DNA of 64,000 nt from an uncultured Collinsella sp. (GTDB lineage: Bacteria > Actinomycetota > Coriobacteriia > Coriobacteriales > Coriobacteriaceae). The position numbers and the translations under genes are program-made. The stretch covers positions 153,741-217,740 of the forward strand of contig CAKUNE010000002.1 of NCBI GenBank assembly GCA_934668345.1. Reading direction: 5' to 3'. This document shows positions 12,540-38,830 of the stretch, piece by piece. A model generated the notes under the pieces. It saw only the letters and a list, made by a program, of their open reading frames with translations. It was not told the origin of the DNA and ran no database searches. How positions within the stretch are numbered: position 1 is the first letter of the stretch; each line of letters opens with the position of its first letter.

Positions 12540-12625
12540 GGGGTCTGGAGTATATCATTCCGTCCTCAAACATTCTCGGCCTTTGGCCTGCGAAACTGCG
12601 GGCGGAACGATATACTCCAGACCCC
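12540..12625. repeat. Nested inverted repeat A upstream of nrdG
   Basis: Two 23-bp arms (12540-12562 and 12603-12625) match at 22 of 23 positions. The 40-base spacer contains GGCC-TTT-GGCC. The left arm ends next to the nrdG ribosome binding site, so folding could limit nrdG translation. No T-run and no target duplication. Confidence 0.85.
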
Positions 12626-12806
12626 TCGCGAGCAACACTCAATGAACGAAGCGAACATCGAGTATAGGGTTCGAGGTCCAATAAAAAATTTGTTGCAGCT
12701 CAACCGTTGCTGCAAGCAAACCGTTATTGCAAGTCGACTCATTTCCGCTAAGAACTTCGAGGAGTGAGCAGACCGCGCGCTGCATCTCAGCTAAGTCAAC
12801 TTGGCC
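12626..12806. other. Non-coding stretch between hairpins A and B
   Basis: I see no gene. A short ORF on the minus strand runs across the hairpins and has no ribosome binding site. TTGCAGC and GCTGCAA near 12694-12716 could form a small stem. Confidence 0.5.
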
Positions 12807-12936
12807 GCCCCGTAGCGAGGCCCCGGACCTTTGCTCGATATGAGTTCCGCACGAACAGGAGGCGCCAGTGGCGCCTCCGTCGTGAGCCAGGACTGTCCGA
12901 AATAGTGAGTAAAGGTCCGGGGCCTCGCTACGGGGC
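12807..12936. repeat. Nested inverted repeat B after nrdD
   Basis: Two 30-bp arms (12807-12836 and 12907-12936) match at 29 of 30 positions. Within the 70-base spacer GGAGGCGCC-AGT-GGCGCCTCC (12858-12878) forms an inner hairpin, extended by an ACGA/TCGT pair. It begins 16 bases past the nrdD stop and could terminate or stabilise the nrdD mRNA. No T-run. Confidence 0.9.
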
Positions 12937-12951
12937 AGTCTGGGATGGTTA

Positions 12952-15174
12952 TTAGAGATGCAGCACGCGGTCGCGGATCTCCTCGGTTCGACCCTGGTTC
13001 CAGAACTGGGTACCGATGTAGCCGCACGTGCGACGGGCGACATTCATCTTCTCCTGGTCACGATTGCCGCAGTTGGGGCACTCCCACACCAGCTTGCCGT
13101 CATCCTCGACAATCTTAATCTCGCCATCGTAGCCGCACACCTGGCAATAATCGCTCTTGGTGTTGAGCTCGGCGTACATGATGTTGTCGTAGATGTACTG
13201 CATCACGCGAATGACAGCCTTGAGGTTGTCCTGCATGTTGGGAACCTCGACATAGGAGATAGCACCGCCCGGCGAAAGCTGCTGGAACATGCCCTCGAAC
13301 TTGAGCTTGTCGAATGCGTCAATCTCCTCGGACACATGAACGTGGTAGCTGTTAGTAATGTAGCCCTTGTCCGTCACGCCCGGGATGATGCCAAAACGGC
13401 GCTGCAGGCACTTGGCGAACTTGTAGGTCGTCGACTCCAACGGCGTACCGTACAGCGAGAAGTCAATATCGCTTTCGGCCTTCCACTCGGCGCACTTATC
13501 GTTCATACGCTGCATGACGGCCATGGCAAAGGGCGTGCCCTCCTTCTCGGTGTGGCTGTGGCCCGTCATGTACTTGACGCACTCATACAGGCCGGCATAC
13601 CCCAGGCTGATGGTGGAATAGCCACCCACGAGCAGCTTATCGATCGTCTCGCCCTTCTTCAGACGCGCCAGGGCACCGTACTGCCAAAGAATCGGTGCGG
13701 CATCCGAAAGCGTACCCATCAGACGCTCATGACGGCACAGCAGAGCGCGGTGGCACAGCTCAAGGCGCTCGTCGAAGATCTTCCAGAACTTGTCCATGTC
13801 CTGGTGCGAGCTCAGCGCGACATCGGGCAGGTTGATGGTCACAACGCCCTGGTTAAAGCGACCGTAGTACTTGGGCTTGTTTGGGTCATAGTTCAGCGCG
13901 TTGGCCACGTTGTTAAATCCGTTACCGGAGCGGTCGGGCGTCAGGAAACTGCGGCAACCCATGCAGGTGTAGCAATCGCCGTTGCCGGCGGTCTCGCCCT
14001 TCGACAGCTTGAGCTCGCGCATCTTCTTCTCGGAGATGTAGTCGGGCACCATGCGCTTGGCAGTGCACTTGGCAGCCAGCTGGGTCAGGTAGAAGTACGG
14101 GGAATTCTCGTGAACGTTATCGTCCTCGAGTACATAGATAAGCTTGGGGAATGCCGGGGTAATCCACACACCGGCTTCGTTCTTAACGCCCTCATAGCGC
14201 TGACGAAGCGTCTCCTCCACGATCATGGCAAGGTCGTGCTTCTCCTGCGCTGAGCGAGCCTCGTTGAGATACATAAAGACCGTCACAAACGGCGCCTGGC
14301 CGTTGGTGGTCATAAGGGTCACGACCTGATACTGAATCGTCTGGACGCCGCGACGGATCTCGTCACGCAGACGGTCCTCAACGACCTCACGGACCTTTTC
14401 GGCAGATGCCGAAACACCGAGTTCCTCGAGCTCGCGGGCGACCTCGCCGCGAATCTTTTGACGGCTCACCTCAACAAAGGGGGCGAGATGGGTCAGCGAG
14501 ATGGACTGGCCGCCGTACTGGGAGGAAGCGACCTGGGCGATAATCTGCGTCGCGATGTTGCAGGCAGTCGAGAAGCTATGCGGCTTCTCGATCAGCGTGC
14601 CCGAGATAACGGTGCCGTTCTGGAGCATGTCCTCCAGGTTCACCAGGTCGCAGTTATGCATGTGCTGGGCAAAGTAGTCGGAATCGTGGAAGTGGATCAG
14701 GCCCTCATTGTGGGCATCCACGATCTCCTGAGGCAGCAGCACGCGCTGAGTCAGGTCCTTGGAAATCTCGCCGGCCATATAGTCGCGCTGGACGGAATTG
14801 ACGGTCGGGTTCTTGTTAGAGTTCTCCTGCTTGACCTCTTCGTTATTGCACTCGATCAGCGACAAAATCTTGTCGTCGGTCGTGTTCTTCTGGCGCTTCA
14901 GGCTCTGAACATAGCGATAGATGATGTAGTGGCGAGCAACCTCGTAGCAGTCGAGACGCATGATCTCGTCCTCGACCAAATCCTGGATCTCCTCGACCGA
15001 AACGGTGTGGCCCGCGTTCTCACATGCCTCGGCGACGTTTTGTGCCGCGTAAACCACCTGGCGGTCAGTTAGACGAGAGCTCTCCTCGACCTCCAAGTTG
15101 GCGGCGCGGATGGCATTGACGATCTTATCGATGTCAAAGACAACCTCGGTGCCGCTGCGCTTGATGATCTTCAT
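12952..15174 (-). CDS. nrdD: Anaerobic ribonucleoside-triphosphate reductase
   Basis: A 740-residue class III reductase making dNTPs without oxygen. Residues 1-95 form an ATP-cone (MKIIKRSGTEVVFDIDKIVN). The core spans the middle, including the Cys-rich CYTCMGCRSFL. The C-terminus has a four-Cys zinc site (CQVCG, CPNCG) and the glycyl radical loop RRTCGYIGTQFWNQGR. ATG at 15174 with GAGGCAAGAGG upstream; the alternative start at 15204 is less well placed. NrdG downstream is its activase. The leader is about 220 bases and the promoter carries an NrdR box. Confidence 0.96.
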   Translation of the reverse strand: MKIIKRSGTEVVFDIDKIVNAIRAANLEVEESSRLTDRQVVYAAQNVAEACENAGHTVSVEEIQDLVEDEIMRLDCYEVARHYIIYRYVQSLKRQKNTTDDKILSLIECNNEEVKQENSNKNPTVNSVQRDYMAGEISKDLTQRVLLPQEIVDAHNEGLIHFHDSDYFAQHMHNCDLVNLEDMLQNGTVISGTLIEKPHSFSTACNIATQIIAQVASSQYGGQSISLTHLAPFVEVSRQKIRGEVARELEELGVSASAEKVREVVEDRLRDEIRRGVQTIQYQVVTLMTTNGQAPFVTVFMYLNEARSAQEKHDLAMIVEETLRQRYEGVKNEAGVWITPAFPKLIYVLEDDNVHENSPYFYLTQLAAKCTAKRMVPDYISEKKMRELKLSKGETAGNGDCYTCMGCRSFLTPDRSGNGFNNVANALNYDPNKPKYYGRFNQGVVTINLPDVALSSHQDMDKFWKIFDERLELCHRALLCRHERLMGTLSDAAPILWQYGALARLKKGETIDKLLVGGYSTISLGYAGLYECVKYMTGHSHTEKEGTPFAMAVMQRMNDKCAEWKAESDIDFSLYGTPLESTTYKFAKCLQRRFGIIPGVTDKGYITNSYHVHVSEEIDAFDKLKFEGMFQQLSPGGAISYVEVPNMQDNLKAVIRVMQYIYDNIMYAELNTKSDYCQVCGYDGEIKIVEDDGKLVWECPNCGNRDQEKMNVARRTCGYIGTQFWNQGRTEEIRDRVLHL

Positions 15175-21848: not shown

Positions 21849-21938
21849 TGGTGTCGGAGGCGGGACTTGAACCCGCATGACCAAAAAGCGGTCACTAGCA
21901 CCTCAAGCTAGCGCGTCTGCCAATTCCGCCACTCCGAC
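21849..21938 (-). tRNA. tRNA-Leu (GAG)
   Basis: A 90-base class II tRNA with GTCGGAG acceptor, anticodon loop TTGAGGT (anticodon GAG), long variable arm, GGTTCAAGTCC T-arm and encoded CCA. It is a single-gene unit with its own promoter and terminator. Confidence 0.97.
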
Positions 21939-21996
21939 ATGCTATGTTGTTGATTCGCAGTTCTTTTTGTTAGACCCGCGCGTTCAACGAGGAAGA

Positions 21997-22044
21997 TAAT
22001 AACCTATGTTTCGAGAACTGTGCAAGCACTTTTTTGAAAAAAGT
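21997..22044 (-). promoter_or_regulatory. tRNA-Leu promoter, with A/T palindrome
   Basis: -35 TTGCAC (22020-22025), 17-base spacer, -10 TTATTA (21997-22002). ACTTTTTTGAAAAAAGT (22028-22044) is a perfect palindrome two bases upstream of the -35, matching the other two tRNA promoters. The predicted leader before the tRNA is about 50 bases. Confidence 0.8.
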
Positions 22045-22082
22045 TTACGAATTTGTAAATGTGCAGGTAAACTGACCTGTTC

Positions 22083-22207
22083 GGGCAGGAATGAGGTTGC
22101 TTTCCAACGCGTCCTCGGGCATGCGGCATTATTTTGATCCGCGCTTCGCGCTACAAAATAATGCCGCCCCCTGCGGAATGCGTTGGAAAGCAACCTCATT
22201 CCTGCCC
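22083..22207. repeat. Nested inverted repeat C
   Basis: Perfect 28-bp arms (22083-22110 and 22180-22207) flank a 69-base spacer. The spacer holds perfect 14-bp arms (22123-22136 and 22154-22167) and a GC core. No T-run, ORF or flanking target duplication. Confidence 0.92.
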
Positions 22208-22267
22208 TAGGGGCACGTACTCCAGGCACCGTTCTCAAACATGTTCTGGGGCTGATATAAATTTAGT

Positions 22268-22322
22268 GGCTCGGCTTTGCCGAGCCTATATATAAGGAGG
22301 CCGGAGCTAAAGCTCCGGCCTC
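22268..22322. repeat. Two compact hairpins between repeats C and D
   Basis: GGCTCGGC-TTT-GCCGAGCC (22268-22286) and a perfect 12-bp stem with a two-base loop (22297-22308 with 22311-22322). On the minus strand the second is followed by CTTATATATAG and may terminate the peptide-transporter operon. A further small stem at 22344-22367 pairs AGTG/CGAT with ATCGCACT. Confidence 0.75.
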
Positions 22323-22387
22323 GCTCAAATTCTTATTAGATTAAGTGAGCGATCAGGGAATCGCACTCCCCCTGCCGAGCTGCCACA

Positions 22388-22519
22388 GGGCCCGTGTTGG
22401 ACTTAGTTTTCAGAACATTCCGCAGACCAGGAAACCCCCTTATCCGCAGCTCCGAAGGAGCAGGATAAGGGGGTTTCCATGGTCGAGGACGTTCTGAAAA
22501 CTAAGTCCAACACGGGCCC
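22388..22519. repeat. Nested inverted repeat D downstream of the Opp operon
   Basis: Perfect 29-bp arms (22388-22416 and 22491-22519) flank a 74-base spacer containing perfect 16-bp arms (22430-22445 and 22463-22478), a GACCA/TGGTC pair and a CTCC/GGAG core. It starts 14 bases past the last transporter gene's stop and shares the geometry, but not the sequence, of repeats B and C. Confidence 0.92.
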
Positions 22520-22533
22520 GGACAAACAACCGA

Positions 22534-23562
22534 CTACAGGTCGATGTGCGATTCCTTAATCGGGAACGGCTCCGCGAAGTGGCAGGCACAGCAGTGGCCC
22601 GGTGCGACTTCCTTAAACTCAGGCAGCTTCTCGGAGCAAATGCCCTGAGCGATCGGGCAACGCGTGTGGAAACGGCAGCCGGTCGGCGGATCCAGCGGTG
22701 ACGGCGGATCGCCGGCGAGGATGATGCGCTTACGAGTCTTCTGGATATCCGGATCGGGAACCGGCACGGCAGACAGCAGCGACTGCGTGTACGGATGGTG
22801 GGGCTCGCTGTAGAGCGTCTTCCAGTCCGAAACCTCGACCATCTTGCCCAGGTACATAACGGCAACGCGATCGGAGATGTGCTGCACGACGGACAGGTCG
22901 TGGGCAATAAACAGGTATGCGGTACCGAACTTGTCCTGGAGCTCCTTAAGAAGGTTCAGAACCTGGGCTTGAATGGAAACATCCAGAGCAGAAACCGGCT
23001 CGTCGCAGATAATCAGCTTGGGCTTCAGCGCAAATGCACGGGCGATGCCGACACGCTGACGCTGACCGCCGGAGAACTCATGAGGATAGCGGTTAATGTG
23101 CTCTGGGTTCAGTCCGACAACGTCGAGAAGCTCGCGGACACGCTCAATACGCTCCTCCTTGGTGCCCACGCCGTGAATGGTCATGGGTTCGGAAACAATC
23201 TCGCCGATGGTCATACGAGGGTTGAGCGAAGCATAAGGGTCCTGGAAGATGAACTGCATCTCGCGACGCATGTCCTTGATCTCAAGCTTACTCATTTCGG
23301 CAACGTCTTTGCCCTGGAAGAACACTTTGCCTGCCGTCGGCTTAGTCAGGCGCATGATGGTGCGGCCCGTGGTGGACTTACCGCAACCAGACTCGCCGAC
23401 CAAGCCAAAGGTCTCGCCCGGATAAATCTCGAACGAAATGTCGTTCACAGCAGAGACGACGCGTTTGGAAAAACGCTTGGCGAACATGCCGGACTCTGCG
23501 GGGAACTCCTTAGAGAGGTGCTCGACCTTCAGCAGCGGAGTACGCTCGTTGGTATCTGCCAT
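22534..23562 (-). CDS. oppF: Oligopeptide ABC transporter ATP-binding protein (OppF-like)
   Basis: A 342-residue ATPase of the peptide/nickel transporter class. Walker A is GESGCGKST, the ABC signature FSGGQRQRVGIARA and Walker B LIICDEPVSALD. The C-terminal oligopeptide-transporter extension has CRFHTRCPIAQGICSE, a Cys cluster that often holds an iron-sulfur centre in this family. It overlaps the upstream ATPase gene by one base (TAATG), showing translational coupling. Last gene of the operon SBP-B-C-D-F. Confidence 0.92.
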   Translation of the reverse strand: MADTNERTPLLKVEHLSKEFPAESGMFAKRFSKRVVSAVNDISFEIYPGETFGLVGESGCGKSTTGRTIMRLTKPTAGKVFFQGKDVAEMSKLEIKDMRREMQFIFQDPYASLNPRMTIGEIVSEPMTIHGVGTKEERIERVRELLDVVGLNPEHINRYPHEFSGGQRQRVGIARAFALKPKLIICDEPVSALDVSIQAQVLNLLKELQDKFGTAYLFIAHDLSVVQHISDRVAVMYLGKMVEVSDWKTLYSEPHHPYTQSLLSAVPVPDPDIQKTRKRIILAGDPPSPLDPPTGCRFHTRCPIAQGICSEKLPEFKEVAPGHCCACHFAEPFPIKESHIDL

Positions 23563-37737: not shown

Positions 37738-37805
37738 GTCGCTCTCCTTCGGAGATAAAAACAACTACAGGAAATGCGCCGTCAGGCTAGCCGTCACAGC
37801 GCGGG

Positions 37806-37912
37806 TAAAGGTTTTCCAGGTGCCCGAGATTGCCGAGAAACCGTGTGGCCATTGACCTAATAGTCATGGCCACACGGTTGAACGGCGAGGTCGGGTGCCT
37901 GGGAAAGCTTTA
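37806..37912. repeat. Large imperfect hairpin E between nanA and nanK
   Basis: About 50 bases on each side (37806-37856 with 37862-37912) pair around a short loop, with roughly six to nine mismatched or wobble positions in three blocks. The inner block is CCGTGTGGCCAT with its complement. The right arm overlaps the nanA stop codon. It is near-continuous rather than spaced like repeats B, C and D. Confidence 0.85.
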
Positions 37913-38830
37913 CAGGAGGCCGTTGTCCTGGAGGACCTTCCTAATAGCCTCGACGTTCTCGCCGGTCATGGCCTTCACCGGACGCGGCATGGTCGGGCTG
38001 TCGAAGATACCCATGAGGTTCATAGCGGTCTTGAAGGCGCCGACGCCGCCGGCATAGCCCTGAACGCCCGAGGTGACATCCCAGATGTGGGAGATCTCGT
38101 TGAGGCGATCCTGCTCGGCCTTGACGGTAGCCCAGTCGCCGGCCTGAGCGGCCTTCCACTGGCGCACGTAGCCCTCGGGCTCAACGTTGGCGAGGCCCGG
38201 GACAGAGCCGTCGGCGCCACCGAGGTAGGCGCCGTCGACAACAACCTCGTGACCGGTGAGGATGCTCATCGGATGGCCGTTCTTCTCGTTCTCCTGAACG
38301 AGGTAGCGGAACGAGATGTCATCACCCGAGGAGTCCTTGACGCCGGCCAGAACGCCCTCGGCGCCGAGCTTGGCAAGGAGCTTCCAAGGAAGCTTGGTGT
38401 GAACGCACACGGGAATGTCATAGGCAAAGATGGGCAGGTCAAGCTCCTCGTGCAGGATGCGGAAGTGCTCCTCGACCTCGGTCATGCCCTGCAGGGCATA
38501 GAACGGGCAGGTGGCGACGAGGGCATCGGCGCCCAGCTCCTGAGCGACCTTGCCGTGCTCAATCATGCGCTCGGTCTCGGTATCGATGATGCCGACCAGA
38601 ACAGGCACGCGGTGGTCGACGATGCGGACGGCCTCGGCGATGATCTGGCGACGACGCTCGTCGGTGGAGAAAACGACCTCACCCGAAGAGCCCAGGAAGA
38701 ACAGGCCATCGACGCCGGCATCGATCATGCGGTTGATGCTGCGCTCAAAGGAGGCAACATCGAGCTGGTGATCTTCGGTATCGGGAACAACGACGGGAGG
38801 GATAACGCCGGTGAATTTCTGAGTTGCCAC
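37910..38830 (-). CDS. nanA: DapA/NanA-family aldolase (probable N-acetylneuraminate lyase)
   Basis: A 306-residue class I aldolase. The Schiff-base Lys is in VLAGVKDSSGDDI, the Tyr in FAYDIPVCVH and the substrate loop in FFLGSSGEVVF. The family includes N-acetylneuraminate lyase, dihydrodipicolinate synthase and others; YDIPV is not the commonest NanA form. Neighbouring nanK and nanE support splitting of sialic acid into ManNAc and pyruvate. Start is GTG at 38830 with AAGGAGATTCTT; longer in-frame reading to 38914 lacks a ribosome binding site. Confidence 0.82.
   Translation of the reverse strand: MATQKFTGVIPPVVVPDTEDHQLDVASFERSINRMIDAGVDGLFFLGSSGEVVFSTDERRRQIIAEAVRIVDHRVPVLVGIIDTETERMIEHGKVAQELGADALVATCPFYALQGMTEVEEHFRILHEELDLPIFAYDIPVCVHTKLPWKLLAKLGAEGVLAGVKDSSGDDISFRYLVQENEKNGHPMSILTGHEVVVDGAYLGGADGSVPGLANVEPEGYVRQWKAAQAGDWATVKAEQDRLNEISHIWDVTSGVQGYAGGVGAFKTAMNLMGIFDSPTMPRPVKAMTGENVEAIRKVLQDNGLL

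Follow-up and report, generated by a model that had tools for sequence, protein, structure and literature searches.

Very long hairpins with a fixed joint and variable arms, mostly just after stop codons, in Collinsella aerofaciens and its close kin

Elements C and D, two giant hairpins in a 64,000-nucleotide stretch of DNA from an uncultured Collinsella sp. (the whole stretch analysed, hereafter the window), are members of a family of very long hairpins in C. aerofaciens and its close kin, located mostly just after stop codons. The family comprises 128 elements with no more than two core changes per half, from 19 genomes including the window, and flanking DNA assigns them to 18 intergenic positions; every count excludes positions 18 and 19, two finds whose cores had four mismatches. 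The arms are rewritten from strain to strain yet remain near-perfectly matched, which indicates that the fold is what is kept.

Elements C and D and their surroundings

The giant hairpins C and D are real and far beyond chance. A sequence-only reading had described both as nested inverted repeats, and its measurements were reproduced: perfect outer arms of 28 bp (C) and 29 bp (D), spacers of 69 and 74 bases and perfect inner arms of 14 and 16 bp. Each element, folded alone on either strand, gave -95 to -111 kcal/mol, whereas shuffled sequences averaged -42 to -46 kcal/mol (z = -13.0 to -17.6) and none of 200 did as well. The relevant features of the window are as follows.

22083..22207, core strand minus: element C; outer arms 22180-22207 / 22083-22110, inner arms 22154-22167 / 22123-22136
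22171-22179 and 22111-22117, minus: joint of C, ATTCCGCAG and CGAGGAC, respectively
22141-22151, minus: apex of C, GCGC-GAA-GCGC
22388..22519, core strand plus: element D; outer arms 22388-22416 / 22491-22519, inner arms 22430-22445 / 22463-22478
22417-22425 and 22484-22490, plus: joint of D, ATTCCGCAG and CGAGGAC, respectively
22449-22461, plus: apex of D, GCTCC-GAA-GGAGC
22534..23562, minus: OppF/DppF-like ABC transporter gene (oppF), stop codon 14 nt from D
22350..22366: downstream arm of S3, a third nested stem around D (17 nt, 88% complementary)
22546..22562, minus: other arm of S3, inside the last oppF codons
22297..22322, minus: short hairpin with a weak T tail, the sole terminator-like site within 250 nt downstream of D
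22268..22286: small GC hairpin between C and D
21852..21938, minus: tRNA gene (Rfam tRNA match), transcribed away from C
12540..12625, minus: related hairpin A, upstream of nrdG, with CCCGCAG...GAGGAC
12740..13000, plus: related giant hairpin B, around and after the nrdD stop codon (12952), with TTCCGCA...AGGAC

C and D had been called unrelated in sequence because they were compared on one strand, whereas the joint lies on the minus strand in C and on the plus strand in D. Both carry ATTCCGCAG...CGAGGAC at the same place in the fold, between the outer and the inner stem, in the order outer arm, AT, TCC, GCA, G...C, GA, GGA, C, outer arm. The window holds only these two copies of ATTCCGCAG (0.8 expected). 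The earlier argument that mobile elements would share sequence is thus misleading, as the joint, not the arms, is the shared part. Three smaller stems had also been placed between C and D; two are clear (22268-22286 and 22297-22322) and a third could not be located. S3, which was absent from that reading, beats all cross-locus controls (0 of 34 as stable). No U tract follows the arms of C or D.

We take the tRNA gene to be a leucine tRNA gene, from its long variable arm and anticodon. One stem of hairpin B mirrors the final nrdD codons. A further hairpin at 37805-37913 has 48-nt arms (79% complementary) that overlap the stop codon (37910) of a dihydrodipicolinate-synthase-family gene, and a clear joint motif was not seen in it. 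At the gathering score only tRNAs matched Rfam in the whole window; below threshold, the C/D region matched only microRNA and sRNA models, chance-like in appearance. Collinsella-1 RNA (RF01700), described as a structured-RNA candidate of Actinobacteria and the human gut (PMC2864571), had no match in the window at the gathering score or in 21950-22600 at E values up to 5.

Distribution, position and orientation

The pattern TTCCGCAG-N(35-65)-GAGGAC matched 43 of 58 relatives, many by chance, as a reversed control pattern matched too. In C. aerofaciens-type genomes most of the listed matches were hairpins with the joint; visual inspection put the number at 10 of 13 in G001 and at 6 of 9 in G015. 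This type is defined here by an oppF 99-100% identical to that of the window (21 genomes, of which 20 were drawn). Alignment A1 contains 24 of 29 unique cores and was used to build covariance model R1; L127, L147, L169, L170 and L168 (minus) were left out as near copies. Because D of the window has the L169 core, A1 contains C and the G024 ortholog of D but not D itself.

A search of other Collinsella genomes had been proposed for such repeats. R1 gave 10-17 matches per genome in all 20 C. aerofaciens-type genomes, counts that may take both strands of one place, and few in the rest of the order. Across the order, 34 of 197 genomes had R1 matches. Six genomes of other Collinsella had two or three matches, nine listed ones had none under stricter filters, and eight genomes outside the genus had one to five, by model match alone. 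Scanning GTDB species genomes with a stricter pattern returned 77 stretches, all from Collinsella. The constancy of the core is partly built in, since most elements were retrieved via the exact core pattern or via R1, which derives from them. Shorter relatives occur in other Collinsella (L177, L184, L178, L190 and L197), with a long outer stem, ATTCCGCAG or a near version, a mini hairpin and CGAGGAC.

A viral or plasmid origin was considered and rejected: loose-pattern matches in viral contigs were numerous and chance-like, and among 150 loci arms of at least 12 nt occurred solely in those from the Collinsella search. Phages had no match to the element. The one plasmid match was to a 900-kb C. 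aerofaciens replicon, NZ_OY725717.1 ("plasmid 6" of strain TSDC17.2-1.1), on which the element positions equal those of contig C6 of G008. This replicon carries groEL and pfk and is probably a piece of chromosome.

Placement and orientation are regular. At 15 of 18 positions the element, read in core orientation, has a converging stop codon 7-33 nt to its right, counting frames of at least 100 codons and up to four elements per position; the short gene grcA3 raises this to 16 of 18. Over all 128 elements, a converging stop codon falls within 40 nt on the right in 95 and on the left in 12; with frames of at least 150 codons, the figures are 95 and 3. Two positions break the rule: position 0, where C neighbors the tRNA gene (a 203-nt frame next to this position in G024 did not count as a gene), and position 2, next to ftsE. 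Of seven positions in the annotated G008 record, four separate convergent genes. Positions are conserved across species in the same orientation while the arms are rewritten, and the flanks are conserved between genomes.

The genes ending at elements include oppF, groEL, thrB and those for class II fructose-bisphosphate aldolase (fba), phosphofructokinase (pfk), phosphoenolpyruvate carboxylase (ppc), a heavy-metal P-type ATPase, a LarD-like transporter, phosphate acetyltransferase (pta), lactaldehyde reductase, aspartate-semialdehyde dehydrogenase, branched-chain aminotransferase and pyruvate:ferredoxin oxidoreductase (PFOR). Position 17 lies behind thrB, the same gene as position 4, and the gene at position 16 had no family match. 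Element genes are more codon biased, with a median effective number of codons (ENC) of 35.3 (14 genes, from several genomes) against 44.2 for 35 long frames of the window, some of which may be false genes (one-sided P = 7e-5).

The joint, IS110-family insertions and changes in the arms

Among 52 elements from four genomes, collected with a finder that allowed only two changes per half, the right half of the joint was CGAGGAC in 51. The left half ended in CAG in 51 of the 52 and was otherwise more variable (ATTCC, TTTCC, ACTCC and others). The apex is, in the simplest reading, a C-GNA-G triloop; GAA accounted for 63 of the 118 folded apex loops, GTA for 11 and GCA for 5, while AAG (30) and TAG (3) are shifted readings and six loops were of other kinds. 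The joint is echoed at the base of the element, where G(C/T)A often precedes the arm and a run resembling G(G/A)NG(G/A)GA or GGACA often follows it. A third stem, formed by the last codons and sequence beyond the element, beat cross-locus controls at 8 of 18 positions, including D (at most 4 of 34 controls as stable, one representative each), and a universal third stem was therefore rejected.

The joint is a site of insertion for an IS110-family element (Pfam DEDD_Tnp_IS110). Of 11 strong matches to its left end, 8 were readable. In 7 of these, spread over five positions, a known outer arm and then TCCGCA precede the left end; one has an extra CA. Three of the seven copies were seen with both arms and four with the left arm alone, and the eighth left end follows ATCCGCA in other sequence. 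The element within groEL's hairpin is an IS110-family remnant (L209:1446-2229). The noncoding left end holds ACATTCCGC (L209:1533-1541), the left half of the joint, which could possibly represent a bridge-RNA target guide, by analogy with IS621, for which bridge RNA and a link to REPs have been described (PMC11208160).

Changes in the arms are compensated, two-sided sites being about as frequent as one-sided sites. In A1, 42 of 50 helix pairs had changed on both sides, with 335 compensated cells, and the covariation score was 0.685, compared with at most 0.203 when partners were slid, although the structure was derived from the same sequences and is thereby favored over the slid versions; none of 500 shuffles reached 0.685. 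Ninety-three nearest-neighbor comparisons (arms more than 30% different left out) covered 2,475 pair sites and gave 60 two-sided Watson-Crick changes, 54 one-sided changes and no two-sided change ending mispaired. Simple arithmetic predicts about three two-sided sites if the sides change independently at that rate. The one-sided changes led to G-T (22), A-C (17) or other mismatches (15). Divergence per base was 3.5% in these arms and 9.3% in the flanks.

In 118 distinct elements, 3,390 of 3,451 outer pairs were Watson-Crick, in arms delimited by a complementarity score that favors paired ends. The 25 G-T and 22 A-C pairs indicate no wobble preference for either RNA strand. At position 12, a burst of six two-sided sites was accompanied by only 4 differences in 280 flanking nucleotides. 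In G001 and G005 a perfect arm extension stands at the place of the AT/C bulge of D; the sister sequence of G013 has the bulge. Close relatives can have wholly different arms at the same position, still complementary. Furthermore, inner modules are shared between position 7 (G001 and G015) and position 14 (G012 and G024), and between positions 1 and 5.

The locus of D was readable in 17 of 31 rows (the window and 30 relatives). The window type is present in six, and in three more both the inner and the outer sequence differ from it. An IS110-family element interrupts the joint in two, and a different insertion interrupts the tip in one. One (G029) has lost D, and four from other clades have other sequence. 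The insertion at the tip, in the G064 oppF locus (L226), begins TGAACTGCACCCC and is perhaps IS3-like. At pfk, 13 of 18 readable aerofaciens-type rows have the usual element, four (G010, G011, G059 and G062) have a different giant hairpin without the joint and one (G019) has none. This second kind of giant hairpin was seen in four close relatives with arms GGACCCTCCGACCCCGCCCGACG and the like (L360, L368, L369 and L375). Both absences that were examined closely, that of D in G029 and that of the pfk element in G019, have the appearance of deletions, and no clean empty site was found at either locus.

The earlier proposal of a selected structure is supported by recurrence at 18 positions, by compensated arm changes and by retention of the joint while the arms change. 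Loss of arms and uncompensated change, named as observations that speak against such a structure, were looked for, and the structure stands despite the loss of D in G029 and its lack in the four other-clade genomes.

Function, rival explanations and comparison with known systems

U-tailed terminators were mostly not found where the elements lie. Within 150 nt of the pfk stop codon, none was found in 19 aerofaciens-type genomes, compared with three of eight other Collinsella, using a simple finder that is crude, as it gives one in only three of the eight controls. At oppF, 7 of 17 aerofaciens-type genomes had one (six being a fragment of D, at a stricter setting), compared with five of six other Collinsella, and the other-clade loci of G030 and G065 have a strong U-tailed hairpin. 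Such a hairpin occurs within 250 nt downstream of the element at 4 of 18 positions (1.6 in shuffles).

Three functions had been suggested for C and D: a two-way transcription barrier, a structured RNA and a protein-bound cruciform. The barrier appears the most likely of these, given its place after stop codons. Our best reading, held tentatively and at slightly below even odds, is that the elements are REP-like 3'-end blocks that terminate or protect messages and whose arms are perfect largely through template switching. It is favored by place and orientation at message 3' ends and by the scarcity of U-tailed terminators there. The gene transcript would fold 7-33 nt past the stop codon into an outer stem of ~28 bp, the fixed joint and an inner stem, sometimes enclosed by the third stem, which takes in the last codons. 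The stable block might stop or release RNA polymerase, replacing a U-tailed terminator, and might shield the message 3' end from exonucleases. Because it is palindromic, it would work from both sides and thus suit convergent neighbors; C would insulate the tRNA promoter behind it. With only pairing and the joint being important, the arms could vary freely; DNA template switching, by copying one arm onto the other, would keep them perfect, and whole modules would be swapped between positions.

Several observations count against a 3'-end block. Positions 0 and 2 break the stop-codon rule, the G-U steps expected under selection of an RNA hairpin were not seen, no U tract follows the arms, and at pfk four genomes have different hairpins without the joint and one has none. 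Pairing kept at the DNA level and placement at the transcript level pull apart, and a hairpin used as RNA but written as DNA would fit both. A more far-reaching version, which is possible but which we doubt, is that ordinary terminators behind the busiest genes have been replaced by a modular hairpin in which the joints alone carry sequence information, the GCAG/GAGGA joint being recognized by a dedicated factor. Template switching during replication would keep rewriting the arms as perfect copies, and genes would exchange inner modules.

The main rival, although rather unlikely, is that the hairpins are mutational by-products, built and repaired as palindromes by template switching at the ends of highly transcribed genes and persisting without a job. 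The near-perfect Watson-Crick arms without wobble preference, the bursts of up to six two-sided changes, the pairing in place of the joint bulge in two genomes and the codon bias of element genes are in keeping with such a process. According to published work, template switching can both generate hairpins and preserve them (PMC8794818), and highly transcribed DNA of yeast is reported to undergo quasi-palindrome mutation (PMC3820800). A by-product does not readily account for the asymmetric joint, kept as CGAGGAC in all but one of the surveyed elements (within the two changes per half that the finder allowed), for the orientation fixed at stop codons or for the lower divergence of arms than of flanks among arms less than 30% different.

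It is unlikely that the elements are selfish REP- or MITE-like repeats moved by a transposase in trans. Their dispersal in many intergenic copies, the shared inner modules and their use as an IS110-family target, as REPs are for insertion sequences (PMC1525189), agree with such an origin, but the same positions are occupied across species in conserved orientation, the absences at D in G029 and at pfk in G019 resemble deletions rather than clean empty sites, and no arm sequence is common to all copies. An origin from RAYT/REP systems in particular was set aside as unsupported, as Y1 transposase genes were present in 10 of 11 genomes but no link to the element was found; the eleventh, G032, has neither a Y1 gene nor an R1 match. 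RAYT-like genes do occur, but the inverted repeats listed at nine Y1 loci, at most five for some of them, do not include this element, and one scanned Y1 gene fell below the cutoff of the REP-associated transposase model (61.4 versus 80 bits). Hairpins at Y1 loci were of a TGTGACA type (G025) or a GGGACAG type (G009, G020 and G021). RAYT-like Y1 genes at L347, L349, L351 and L352 stand beside their own short hairpins of these types; intergenic sequence was read base by base at L348 and L352 only.

Less probable still is a structured RNA, regulatory or in the 3' untranslated region, with a protein that binds its joint and GNA apex. Conservation of joint and apex with free arms and a strand fixed relative to the gene at most positions would suit it, but G-U pairs are tolerated on neither strand, Rfam matched only tRNAs at the gathering score, and elements after stop codons would be transcribed from the opposite strand to those before ftsE, the tRNA gene and nrdG. 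Least probable of all is a DNA site, a cruciform or hairpin binding a nucleoid protein or gyrase and relieving supercoiling behind busy genes: pairing is kept at the DNA level without wobble, the C-GNA-G apex recalls d(GCGAAGC)-type minihairpins, which are very stable in DNA, and REP/BIME elements bind gyrase, but a fixed orientation relative to the gene is unexpected for a symmetric site and spacers of 69-74 nt make cruciform extrusion slow.

Open-licence PMC literature on Collinsella repeats or hairpins gave no description of this family in the titles and abstract starts of the matches listed, and Collinsella goes unmentioned in the main text of a survey that covered perfect inverted repeats across 118,019 genomes (PMC13155455). 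A survey of human-microbiome RNAs lists 250 palindromic candidates, 230 of them predicted to be able to form terminators (PMC8040213). The 18 positions in ~20 genomes are natural replicates for change in long perfect hairpins, so that the debated role of template switching in compensatory evolution becomes directly testable. In addition, the joint provides an IS110-family element with a clean natural target. Should the hairpins terminate or protect messages, they would represent a style of terminator without U tracts behind central-metabolism genes of a common human gut bacterium; if the modular-hairpin reading were true, what is inherited in this genetic element would be its shape and not its sequence.

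Known systems resemble the family in part. Integron attC sites, which combine variable sequence with a conserved fold and a fixed orientation 3' of genes, are alike in all three respects and are reportedly targeted by IS1111-family elements. Unlike attC sites, the Collinsella elements lie at constant positions behind core chromosomal genes (groEL, pfk, fba, ppc, pta and PFOR) without cassettes, and to our knowledge their joint is unlike attC core sites.

Intrinsic (Rho-independent) terminators, among them U-less and clustered ones, are likewise hairpins with a GC-rich base within ~30 nt of the stop codon, the placement found here at most positions. In Bacillus cereus terminators, compensated stem changes are reported with G-U as the most frequent intermediate (PMC5381666), and poly-U is reported not always to be needed (PMC8355165). 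Unlike intrinsic terminators, the Collinsella elements are several times longer and nested, with a fixed joint, no U tract and no G-U intermediates.

REP, BIME and REPIN repeats of Enterobacteria and Pseudomonas are dispersed intergenic palindromes, often found 3' of genes. They are also reported to be targets of insertion sequences (PMC1525189, PMC11208160). The present family shares the dispersal and the targeting, in its many elements at scattered intergenic positions and in the IS110-family left ends at its joint. Unlike REP/BIME, the Collinsella elements are ~120-155 bp long, with arms of ~28 bp and an orientation fixed after stop codons, and unlike REP/BIME palindromes, whose sequence is held in common, their copies share only the joint and the apex, while the arms are free.
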